This document shows, piece by piece, positions 2,703 to 42,113 of a DNA stretch of 64,000 nucleotides. Made by a program: the position numbers and the translations under genes. The stretch's first letter is position 1; the number at the start of each line of letters is the position of its first letter. Location of the stretch: positions 1 to 64,000 of the forward strand of contig JAAYAD010000101.1 in the NCBI GenBank assembly GCA_012719545.1, read 5' to 3'. The DNA comes from Clostridiaceae bacterium. Lineage in GTDB: Bacteria > Bacillota > Clostridia > DSM-8532. The notes beneath the pieces were generated by a model, which saw only the letters and a program-made list of their open reading frames with translations, did not search any database and was not told the DNA's origin.

Positions 2703-2854
2703 GTATACTCCAATAATATTAAAATGTGAAAACCTGGCATAATATGCATTACTGCATAAGGAACCGGCAGACGAGAATAATAAGACTTGATTGATTTTTA
2801 TATTATTTTTCTTTCCTTATATCTCAAAATTGCAATTTAACGAGGTAGGGAGAC

Positions 2855-4417
2855 TTGAACACAGGAAAGACTTTTAAGATATTTGAAAGAATATCTGTTT
2901 ATATACTCTTGTCATTTTTAATGTTTATACTGGTATCATCCCTTTTAGCCAGGGCTGAATACTGCGGCTACAAATACTATGACAACCCTGTATGGAACAG
3001 GCAGGACTTTTTTTCCCTCATACTTGCCGTATTGGTCTTATTCTGCGCTTTTGTACTGCTTTACAAGTTGGGAAGAGCCTTTAACAGATTTGAAAGAAAA
3101 TCAGTCATATTCACCATTATTTTATTGTCTGCATCTGTTCAGGTGCTGTTTATACTGCTTTTTCCTGCAAATCAGTTTGCGGATCAGGATGCGGTCAACA
3201 CAATTGCATATATGATAATACAAGGCGATTACAGTGCCTTTCAGGAAAGAGGATACCTTTATCTTTATCCAAACAATATTGGAATATCATTGTTCTTATC
3301 TCTTTTATACAGAATCTGTCCCATACCCCTTCTTTTGCCAAAGCTATTAAATGTCCTTTTTTCTTCTATTACGACCTATCTCATATTCAGGATTTATGAG
3401 GAAACCATAGGAGCAGGAAGGGAAATCAATTATTCCATTCTGGTGCTGTCTGGCTTTTTCCTGCCGGTGATATTGTTAAATAATCTTGTGTATAACGATA
3501 TTTACAGCACAACCTTTTTTACCGGCGCAGTTTACTATGCTGAAAGGTATGTAAAAACAAGAAAAAGACAGTATTTGATGCTGGTAGGAGCAATGATAAT
3601 AGCAGGAGACTTCCTAAGGCCTTTGGGATTGATATTCATTATTGCCATATTCCTTTATTTTGCAATAAGAAGATTACCTGTCGCAAAGATGTTTGCATTT
3701 TTTGCCGTTGTGTTTATTTTATGCAAGCTTCCTTTATATGCCGTAAACATATGGCTTTTAAGTACCGGCAAAATTTCTGAACCTGTAGGCGTAAACTCAA
3801 TTCCCATCCATATGTGGCTCAACATAGGCATGAATGAGCAAAAGTTTGGATATTGGGATGACTCGTACTCTTTCAATATTTACATCAATGAGGGGCAGTG
3901 GAATAAAGAAAGGAGCATCCGCATTTACCGGGAGCTTATAAAGAAGACTATTGATGAAAAAGGAGTCCTGGGCATTGCCAATACTTATTTAAAGAAAAAT
4001 ATCTGGCTGTGGACAGAAGGGACATACCAGGCCGAGTACTACGGTATCGGATCATGGGGGTATATGTATCAGACCCTGGCCACAGATCTTTTAAGCGGCA
4101 ATACATACTTCCGGGACGGTATCAGATGGTTTTTGCATGTTGTAAACCTTCTGATACTAAGCCTGTCATTTTGCGGACTTGTAAAAGCAGCCGGCAAGAA
4201 ATATGAATATCCCTTAATACTTCAGGTCATTGTTATTTTGGGATTTATAGGATTCTATACATTATGGGAGATAAAACCCCGATATATTTACCCTGCATAT
4301 CCCTATCTCATTCTTACGTCATTCCATGGCCTTTCAATACTTGAGGAAAGTTTCTCAAGGCTTTTTGAAAGCTTGCGAAAAAGGCAGGAGCGGATTAAAC
4401 CTTATGAATATACTTAA
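2855..4417 (+). CDS. polytopic membrane protein, probable GT-C-type glycosyltransferase
   Basis: A 520-residue protein with about ten to twelve hydrophobic segments. A first extracytoplasmic loop after helix 3 contains an acidic FADQDAVNT stretch and then YLYLYPNNIG. This layout (acidic motif in the first outer loop, many helices, a globular outer loop near residues 300-400) is typical of GT-C enzymes that use polyprenyl-phosphate sugars. Acceptor and donor cannot be read from sequence. It starts at TTG 2855 behind GAGGTAGGGAG and appears monocistronic. Its stop codon lies within a 19-bp tandem duplication. Alternative: an O-antigen polymerase-like protein of unknown role. Confidence 0.65.
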   Translation: MNTGKTFKIFERISVYILLSFLMFILVSSLLARAEYCGYKYYDNPVWNRQDFFSLILAVLVLFCAFVLLYKLGRAFNRFERKSVIFTIILLSASVQVLFILLFPANQFADQDAVNTIAYMIIQGDYSAFQERGYLYLYPNNIGISLFLSLLYRICPIPLLLPKLLNVLFSSITTYLIFRIYEETIGAGREINYSILVLSGFFLPVILLNNLVYNDIYSTTFFTGAVYYAERYVKTRKRQYLMLVGAMIIAGDFLRPLGLIFIIAIFLYFAIRRLPVAKMFAFFAVVFILCKLPLYAVNIWLLSTGKISEPVGVNSIPIHMWLNIGMNEQKFGYWDDSYSFNIYINEGQWNKERSIRIYRELIKKTIDEKGVLGIANTYLKKNIWLWTEGTYQAEYYGIGSWGYMYQTLATDLLSGNTYFRDGIRWFLHVVNLLILSLSFCGLVKAAGKKYEYPLILQVIVILGFIGFYTLWEIKPRYIYPAYPYLILTSFHGLSILEESFSRLFESLRKRQERIKPYEYT

Positions 4418-22787: not shown

Positions 22788-23729
22788 ATGGAGTTCGAAC
22801 ACAAACCCATTATGCTGGATGAGTGCGTTGAATTCCTGAACATCCGCCCGGATGGAACCTATGTGGACGGAACATTAGGCGGAGGAGGGCATTCTTCGGA
22901 AATCCTTAAGCGCCTTGGAAAAGACGGACTGTTAATTGGCATAGATCAGGATGAAAACGCAATTAAGGCGGCTGAACGGAAACTATCAAGTGTTGAAACC
23001 CAGGGAAAATTTGTAATTGAACATACGAACTTTGAAAACATAAGAGAAGTTGTAAAGAAACATAAGAAGGATTCCGTTGACGGAATAATTCTGGACTTGG
23101 GAGTGTCCTCGCATCAGCTTGATGAAGGGGAACGGGGTTTTTCCTACCGGCATGATGCTCCCCTGGACATGAGGATGGACCGGAATAATCCTCTGGATGC
23201 CTCAACAATAGTCAATACCTGGAGCCAGGAAGAGCTTGCATCAATTATCCGTGAATACGGTGAGGAAAAATGGGCTTCAAGAATAGCAGAATTCATCGTC
23301 AGGAATCGTAAGACACAAAAGATAAGCACCACGGGTCAGCTGGCAGACATCATAAAAACGGCCATTCCGGCAGCAGCAAGAAGGGAAGGCCCCCATCCGG
23401 CAAAAAGAACTTTCCAGGCCATAAGAATTGCGGTCAACAGAGAACTTGAGGTACTGGAAAAAGTTCTGGAGGATGTCACAGACATCTTAAGACCCGGCGG
23501 AAGAATTGTAATTATAACCTTCCACTCTCTGGAGGACAGAATAGTAAAAAAAGCCTTCCAAAAACTAGCTCAAAGCTGTATCTGTCCTAAGGATCTTCCA
23601 CAATGTGTATGCGGAATCAAACCCAAGCTGAAAATTATAACCCGAAAACCCGTAACACCGTCGGAAGAAGAACTTGAAGAGAATCCAAGGGCTCGGAGCG
23701 CAAAGCTAAGAGTAGCTGAAAAATTGTAA
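22788..23729 (+). CDS. rsmH: 16S rRNA (cytosine-1402-N4)-methyltransferase
   Basis: A 313-residue SAM-dependent methyltransferase that modifies C1402 in the ribosomal decoding centre. Family motifs are [23 protein letters not shown] (SAM loop), [26 protein letters not shown] and [15 protein letters not shown], with the C-terminal [22 protein letters not shown]. Length and context (mraZ-rsmH) are standard. What follows is not: the usual short gap to ftsL is replaced by a ~490-base noncoding stretch full of ACAAAAGA repeats. Confidence 0.97.
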
Positions 23730-23753
23730 ACCATTAAATACTGATATATTTTC

Positions 23754-24098
23754 ACAAAAGACAAAAACACACCACACAAAAGATAAGCTTAAATCTATAC
23801 AAAAGATGAAAAGTAAAAAGTACAAAAGAAAAGCAATTGAAAAGTACAAAAGAGATTAAAAAAACACTAAAGAATGTAAAAAAACAAAAGAATTATTAAA
23901 CCACAAATCTTCTAAAGCATCTGAAGCTTTAGTACAGGTGCCAATCCACAAAAGAAATCAAATGAAATTTTACATTTACAAAAGAATTAAACACAAAAAT
24001 GTGCAAAAGAAAAATAATTTAATATAACCTTACAAAAGATAAATGGCTCAAAAGCACAAAAGATTAAAGTAAATAGGTACATAAGAATTTACAAAGAG
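23754..24098 (+). repeat. array of ACAAAAGA repeats between rsmH and ftsL
   Basis: Ten exact ACAAAAGA copies start at 23754, 23776, 23799, 23822, 23846, 23884, 23948, 23978, 24032 and 24056; the first five are 22-24 bases apart. Several one-base variants (for example at 23866, 24003 and 24079) fill the gaps. The 490-base region is A-rich on this strand, has stops in every frame and shows no gene. It also holds a 7-bp hairpin CTAAAGC/GCTTTAG (23912-23932). Function unknown. Confidence 0.85.
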
Positions 24099-24136
24099 TT
24101 AAGCACTAAGGAAAATAATAAAGAAGAGTGATTATA

Positions 24137-24154
24137 AGGGCCTTTTGGGGCCCT
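24137..24154 (+). repeat. GC-rich hairpin upstream of ftsL
   Basis: AGGGCC/GGCCCT stem with loop TTTTGG. It stands out in an A-rich leader but has no T tract, so it is a structured leader element rather than a clear terminator. It lies 70 bases before the ftsL start. Confidence 0.5.
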
Positions 24155-24223
24155 AAATTTCCCTTAAGGCATGGCTTTGACTGATTGGTACCTATAAATC
24201 AATTAAGCAGGAAGGGATTAAAC

Positions 24224-24715
24224 GTGGAAAATTATAATCGATATGTTTATGGCAGTGTTGCCCCAAAGCTTCCCCCGGAATCTGAAAGGCATGATGCAAG
24301 GAAACAGGCTCCTAAAGCAGCGCCCCGTTTGTCCCAGCCTTCATTGCCTAAGGTTCAAATGATATTCTGTGTTATTTTCATGGTTGCTGTAAGCTTTATA
24401 ATCCTGTATCGGTATTCCGTCATATCGGAGTTAAGCAACCGAATGGGAGTTCTTACCAAGGAATACAATACACTCAGAGACGAAAACAGAATGCTCAAGG
24501 TTGAGATAGAAAAAAGCATTAATTTGAATTATGTTAAGGAGATAGCTGAGACAAAGCTTAATATGCATAAGCCTTACAGCTATCAGTTAGTTCTGGTGGA
24601 TGTTCCGAAAAGCGACTACAACGTGGTTGTCAACCAGTCGTACATAGAAGAAGCTACTAAAAATGCTTCATTATTAGGAAAAATAATGGACACCGTAAAG
24701 GCGATATTGCCTTAA
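24224..24715 (+). CDS. ftsL: FtsL/DivIC-like septum protein
   Basis: A 163-residue bitopic protein: cytoplasmic N-terminus (~50 residues, basic, proline-rich), one membrane helix (residues ~45-66, IFCVIFMVAVSFIILY), then a coiled coil (ELSNRMGVLTKEYNTLRDEN...) and a short extracellular tail. This is the FtsL/DivIC form and the position between rsmH and the class B PBP is that of ftsL. FtsL links FtsQ/DivIC with the FtsW-PBP septal synthase. GTG 24224 has AGGAAGGGA upstream. The family diverges quickly, so the name rests mainly on topology and context. Confidence 0.82.
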   Translation: MENYNRYVYGSVAPKLPPESERHDARKQAPKAAPRLSQPSLPKVQMIFCVIFMVAVSFIILYRYSVISELSNRMGVLTKEYNTLRDENRMLKVEIEKSINLNYVKEIAETKLNMHKPYSYQLVLVDVPKSDYNVVVNQSYIEEATKNASLLGKIMDTVKAILP

Positions 24716-41844: not shown

Positions 41845-41966
41845 GATTTTGCCGTACCTGCATTGATAGGGCATTGAATCCTGTTTTATTGCTAAATATA
41901 GTAAGGTTCTTTTTCTTGACATGGCATATTAATTACTCATATAATAAAATCAGTTGAATATGGAAT

Positions 41967-42085
41967 ATCTTCAGGGCAGGGTGAAATTCCCGACCGGCGG
42001 TAATATGATTTAATCATTAGCCCGCGAGCTAACGCTGACCCGGTGAGATTCCGGGGCCGACAGTACAGTCTGGATGGGAGAAGAT
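41967..42085 (+). promoter_or_regulatory. FMN riboswitch (RFN element)
   Basis: The conserved RFN core is present: TCAGGGCAGGGTGAAATTCC, CCGACCGGCGGTAAT, GCCCGCGAGC, GACCCGGTGAGATTC and GGCCGACAGTACAGTC, then GGATGGGAGAAGAT. Closing helix P1 is ATCTTC (41967-41972) with GAAGAT (42080-42085). It controls ribU through the following terminator. It fills most of the gap between 41845 and 42196. Confidence 0.97.
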
Positions 42086-42113
42086 GTGCTTTTTTTATGC
42101 TTTTTTGCAATTT

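Follow-up and report, generated by a model that had tools for sequence, protein, structure and literature searches.

The closest described counterparts of the element reported here are RNAs and DNA regions in which a short motif is repeated. The noncoding RNAs CsrB, CsrC and RsmZ carry many copies of a short motif, GGA (ANGGA), in hairpin loops and are able to load many proteins. In the TRAP-binding leaders of the Bacillus trp operon, regular short single-stranded motifs are placed ahead of a hairpin; these sites are 11 GAG/UAG triplets, 2–3 nt apart, which bind one ring. Type III toxin-antitoxin repeat RNAs consist of near-identical repeats of 34–48 nt and are accompanied by a ToxN-like endoribonuclease. 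On the DNA level, MraZ boxes are TGGG/AAAGTG-type repeats that precede mraZ at intervals of about 10 bp.

The array described here resembles CsrB, CsrC and RsmZ in its many short-motif copies on transcribed noncoding RNA, but its motif, ACNAAAGA, lies in unstructured A-rich RNA. Two features of the CsrB/RsmZ type of sponge are lacking: GGA sites in hairpin loops were not found, and a cognate CsrA does not go with the array consistently, being absent from 18 of 38 array-bearing genomes. With the TRAP leaders it shares a regular series of short single-stranded motifs, in a leader or between genes, that precedes a hairpin; in contrast to them, 3–22 8-mers are present, mostly 12–90 nt apart and at different genes. 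With the MraZ boxes it shares direct repeats in the dcw cluster, but the motif is another one, a 10-bp period is lacking and the arrays lie mostly downstream of mraZ. A type III toxin-antitoxin RNA was rejected, given the 8-nt motif, the diverged spacers and adjacent genes that are not ToxN-like. In some Lachnospiraceae, arrays were found directly 3' of 6S RNA (RF00013) or Clostridiales-1 RNA (RF01699), outside the Rfam models. Literature searches on the motif, on dcw leaders and on the KhpB motif returned nothing on the array element. The reading favoured below, with a probability of roughly 0.7, takes the array for a conserved RNA platform, mostly unstructured, which offers many single-stranded sites to a factor that binds RNA sequence-specifically.

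The array between rsmH and ftsL

In the window (the whole stretch of 64,000 nucleotides that was analysed), the array occupies positions 23754–24063 of the plus strand. Its upstream neighbour is the ORF of rsmH (22788–23729, +), coding for a 16S rRNA methyltransferase, and its downstream neighbour is ftsL (24224–24715, +), for which a GTG start was inferred from relatives, the mechanical ORF beginning at 24185. The order mraZ, rsmH, ftsL is the same in relatives. Exact copies of ACAAAAGA start at 23754, 23776, 23799, 23822, 23846, 23884, 23948, 23978, 24032 and 24056, all on the plus strand, and near copies were found at 23866 (ACTAAAGA), 24079–24086 (ACATAAGA) and 24105–24112 (ACTAAGGA). The last two, covering 24079–24112 (+), belong to the single-base variants that are over-represented in arrays. 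The sequence-only reading had reported ten exact copies of an 8-mer with several near copies in one orientation, the first five at intervals of 22–24 bases, and no open frame. All of this was confirmed: the first intervals are 22, 23, 23 and 24, and the longest stop-free run over 23730–24180 is 55 codons. The region is very A-rich; 10 copies of ACAAAAGA were observed where 0.25 were expected, and the maximum in 5000 dinucleotide shuffles of the region itself was 3. No promoter was seen directly before the array.

The same reading had tied its case to the frequency of the motif in the genome and to its conservation in relatives. On the first point no excess was found, with 268 occurrences of ACAAAAGA in the 2.95-Mb genome versus 253 of the reversed string, so no regulon of single motifs is visible. 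On the second point, conservation in relatives turned out to be strong (see below). Pairs of ACAAAAGA 5–25 bases apart occur genome-wide at the array locus of the window only, and a looser pair search added one unrelated place, versus three control matches.

An eleventh exact ACAAAAGA, missed by the earlier observation, is located inside the rsmH coding sequence at 23315–23322 (+), in the codons ACA CAA AAG ATA (TQKI); relatives conserve it there or at one alternative position. Across the family, rsmH coding sequences (27.9 kb) contain 28 sense copies, no antisense copy and no reversed control. Most of the sense copies occupy one of two positions, at a distance of 412 or 667 bases from the match end; in the same family no copy was found in 53.7 kb of ftsL and PASTA PBP coding sequence. 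At the first position, all 14 genomes encoding QKI read xxA CAA AAG ATA. The residue before QKI varies (Thr, Ile, Ala, Val, Glu) although its codon always ends in A, and both CAA and AAG are used less often than their synonyms; this points to selection on the nucleotides within the message. In other families, rsmH carries 14 sense copies, no antisense copy and 2 control copies.

Conservation and distribution in Clostridia

The homologous place in relatives was located via FtsL. At least three sense copies of ACNAAAGA were detected in the rsmH–ftsL gap of 31 out of 31 ftsL loci of the same family (seven genera, the window's own included), while no reverse-strand copy was present in the 30 same-family loci checked. 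Alignment of close relatives, as the sequence-only reading had proposed, gave the picture of kept motifs and diverged spacers: identity was 83–89% for motif bases versus 54–70% for spacer bases of the same letter. This difference indicates that the motifs are under selection and the spacers free. Pure degenerate repeat expansion, one of the options first raised, fails on the same comparison. The earlier observation was right but understated, as the array is no local curiosity.

From 600 sites the consensus YACNAAAGAWAA was derived, with strict C2, A5 and G7, a free position 3 and a position 6 that also accepts G or T. It is kept while the spacers diverge. The motif sites are predicted to be unpaired, with an opening of 0.859 in the native sequence versus 0.849 with shuffled spacers; accessibility thus follows from base composition, and a spacer structure exposing the motif was rejected for this reason.

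Arrays in the dcw cluster were also found in about 12 other clostridial families. Over all families, they are located according to lineage between rsmH and ftsL (f1, f2, f16, f26, f29, f176, f187, f197, f209), between mraZ and rsmH (f175, f181, f189) or upstream of mraZ (f15). One f26 species displays 22 copies at a spacing of 21–26 bases, with one gap of 51 bases. In genus g356, 69 of 78 genomes carry arrays, mostly between mraZ and rsmH. A scan of the class with a triple-motif pattern was positive for 65 of 391 genomes, versus about 17 for the reversed pattern, a figure counted by hand from the result table. In an even sample of the phylum, the matches besides the window's own genome were coding or simple tandem repeats only, and among the raw matches outside Clostridia many were likewise simple tandem repeats or parts of coding sequence. 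Scanned without bias, about 85,000 species genomes gave at least 118 triple-motif stretches; among the matches listed, 33 fell in the dcw cluster, a target region of about 1 kb. Many Clostridia are without array and get by in its absence, a point against the reading favoured here. Since the patterns miss arrays with fewer or more variant copies, the distribution given here is a lower bound wherever an absence is stated.

Arrays on other transcripts and the proposed RNA reading

Arrays linked to 6S RNA were detected in Eubacterium plexicaudatum (strain ASF492) and two other Lachnospiraceae, where they start 0–35 bases after the 6S RNA: L119 (6S RNA and array, 3183–3666), L129 (6S RNA and array, 2810–3118) and L219 (minus strand, 6S RNA 1513–1328, array 1329–1251). 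A clear intrinsic terminator follows the array directly in two of the three, and the Rfam model may cover less than the full primary 6S transcript. 6S-linked arrays are found in genomes that have none in the dcw cluster. The proposition that an array always follows 6S RNA was rejected on the basis of 30 strong 6S loci without array. In L129 and L219 the 6S RNA, the array and the terminator are followed by a spoIID-like gene, with pckA upstream. One other Lachnospiraceae carries an array 3' of Clostridiales-1 RNA. No Rfam match at gathering threshold covers an array, be it that of the window or those of 40 scanned loci; only neighbours match.

Just upstream of spoIVA in locus L085, a promoter (TTGACA-17-TAACAT), an array and a strong terminator follow each other, an order which by its anatomy makes it a stand-alone RNA gene. 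Two g356 genomes, G652 and G718, have an empty mraZ–rsmH gap of 30 bp and an array of 11–12 copies elsewhere. There it forms part of the 3' UTR of another, unrelated gene, and a terminator and a convergent gene come after it; the sister species keep the mraZ–rsmH array. Usually one array is present per genome, sometimes two. A strict rule of one array per genome is weakened by G486, G826 and G869, which carry a second array besides that of the dcw cluster. The second array of G486 (four copies, L232:2932–3050 in reverse-complement coordinates) has an SLH-domain gene on one side and a convergent YhbY-like gene on the other, and ends in a terminator. Wherever the upstream transcript is clear (rsmH, mraZ, 6S, Clostridiales-1, a DUF gene, the SLH gene), the array is in sense orientation to it, and the contexts otherwise carry their own sense promoter. 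Genes next to arrays include rsmH, ftsL, spoIVA, a spoIID-like gene and a convergent oxidoreductase.

The sense orientation everywhere, the linkage to 6S RNA and terminators, the copies in coding sequence and the free spacing favour RNA over DNA as the level of action. The motif, its clustering and conservation, the absence of a helical phase and the recurrence on other RNAs can be read directly from the sequences. From these we infer a reader that would be a protein, act on RNA and have a regulatory outcome. Among the options of the sequence-only reading, the best fit is the A-rich unstructured RNA on which an RNA-binding protein would find its sites, with the correction that the element is more than a dcw leader and occurs beyond the genome of the window. 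Each YACNAAAGAWAA copy in a transcript would be the docking site for one putative single-strand RNA-binding factor. In the window's family, such sites would be distributed on the rsmH–ftsL transcript, first in the rsmH coding region and then in the gap, ahead of the hairpin before ftsL. Several bound molecules would most likely control how the dcw mRNA is processed, how stable it is or whether it is read through; a dense array could, in addition, retain or titrate the factor.

Given the RNA reading, the odds that the dcw transcript is controlled in cis are slightly better than even, and those of a sponge or scaffold in trans slightly worse; both may hold. The position bias and the copies in the rsmH coding sequence favour cis, the relocation within a genus and the 6S linkage favour trans. 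Taken as a full alternative, a trans sponge supposes that an RNA-binding protein is titrated by the array RNA in the way CsrA is by CsrB/RsmZ, whether this RNA stands by itself or is attached to 6S RNA, Clostridiales-1 RNA or a 3' UTR; the dcw cluster would be no more than a transcribed perch. The low number of arrays per genome, the 6S-linked arrays in genomes without a dcw array and the stand-alone unit before spoIVA would agree with it, and the apparent move of the array in G652 and G718 to the 3' side of another gene is suggestive. However, the strong dcw bias in about 13 families and the conserved sites inside rsmH argue for a role in cis, no target set is visible and some genomes carry both arrays; as the whole explanation, the sponge is less likely than not.

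Hairpins, spacing and candidate readers

A GC-rich hairpin, AGGGCCT-TTTG-GGGCCCT, is located 3' of the array in the window (24137–24154, +). It was not called as an intrinsic terminator and shows no convincing U-tract. In the window's genus, a GC-rich hairpin is found 3' of most arrays with a stem that varies in sequence (GGGGGTC/GACCCCC, GGGGGCC/GGCCCCC, GGGAGCC/GGCTCCC), so most relatives have a differing hairpin sequence at this place. The mraZ–rsmH group displays a CAGYTGGTR...YRCCARCTG hairpin 3' of the array, with loops of 3–15 and compensatory changes at two stem positions among 16 distinct sequences, which counts in favour of an RNA-level element. Intrinsic terminators between the array and the next gene are strong in L085 and L129, and terminator-like in several relatives.

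Transcription attenuation, in which the hairpin before ftsL would terminate or be read through depending on binding to the array, could account for the hairpins in most of the genus and for the T-rich, terminator-like tails in several lineages. It is considered improbable, as the hairpin of the window is not called a terminator, the hairpins of the mraZ–rsmH group are mostly devoid of a U-tract, and 6S-linked and 3'-UTR arrays precede ordinary terminators.

In L220, L125, L176 and other mraZ–rsmH loci, the mraZ stop is closely followed by an inverted repeat (TATATAACTTGCAAAAGTTTATATA) which is conserved, has a GCAA loop and borders on the array at its 5' side; it occurs in addition to the 3' hairpin. 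In L172 (5750–5830), a short ORF (MFGLLSFSTWYEWFKYWFGKK) with a Shine-Dalgarno sequence is located just upstream of the array; it resembles a small membrane peptide.

The preferred spacing of the motifs is 22–25 in the window's relatives and 15 or 17–18 in the mraZ–rsmH group, and spacings below 12 are almost absent. The first five copies of the window, two helical turns apart, and the common mode at 22–25 bp would suit clustered direct-repeat sites for a DNA-binding protein (a regulator, a nucleoid or a segregation protein). This explanation is a little less probable still than attenuation: the pooled spacings show no 10.5-bp coherence, a spacing of 15 bp dominates another lineage, and the arrays are linked to noncoding RNAs and terminators and, in about eight contexts unrelated to each other, always share the orientation of the transcript. 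The idea of two helical turns therefore fails, and a DNA operator array of the MraZ-box or iteron-like type was rejected for its missing helical phasing. Neutral repeat expansion of A-rich DNA, for which the region's composition and a recent 39-bp duplication in relative L032 (probably the way copies arise) could be quoted, is refuted as a full explanation by motifs kept over spacers, family-wide conservation and coding copies with fixed wobble bases, and is very improbable.

Candidate proteins for reading the RNA platform were searched in 38 array-bearing genomes. Hfq was present in 19 and CsrA in 20 of them; each being missing from about half (19/38 and 18/38, respectively), neither can be the general partner, and both were excluded as universal partners. 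The KH domains of KhpA/KhpB were found in all 38, but these proteins are near-universal, so their presence is no evidence of a link. According to PMC6403258, KhpA/KhpB (EloR/Jag) of Bacillota are a pair of RNA-binding proteins with KH domains that have a part in the elongation and division of cells, which fits the place of the arrays; PMC6403258 and PMC10117718 report them on UTRs, sRNAs and tRNAs. No binding motif is given in the available text of PMC10117718 and PMC12456014. KhpA/KhpB is a possible reader of ACNAAAGA, as a lead and not as a result.

The chances are about even that the arrays belong to an undescribed clostridial RNA regulatory system, whose factor would read YACNAAAGAWAA in dense arrays on a movable platform: the dcw operon with its rsmH sites in most lineages, 6S and Clostridiales-1 RNA in others, and a stand-alone unit near spoIVA. 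If so, the dcw cluster in much of Clostridia, also in gut bacteria, would possess an apparently undescribed layer of post-transcriptional control, and an RNA-binding factor whose single-strand motif is unusually long and strict would be waiting to be found, for which the array would be a ready-made bait. The links to 6S RNA, spoIVA and the spoIID-like gene would then join division, a growth-phase RNA and sporulation under one reader. Elsewhere in the window, an ordinary FMN riboswitch (Rfam RF00050, 126 bits) was identified at 41963–42089.
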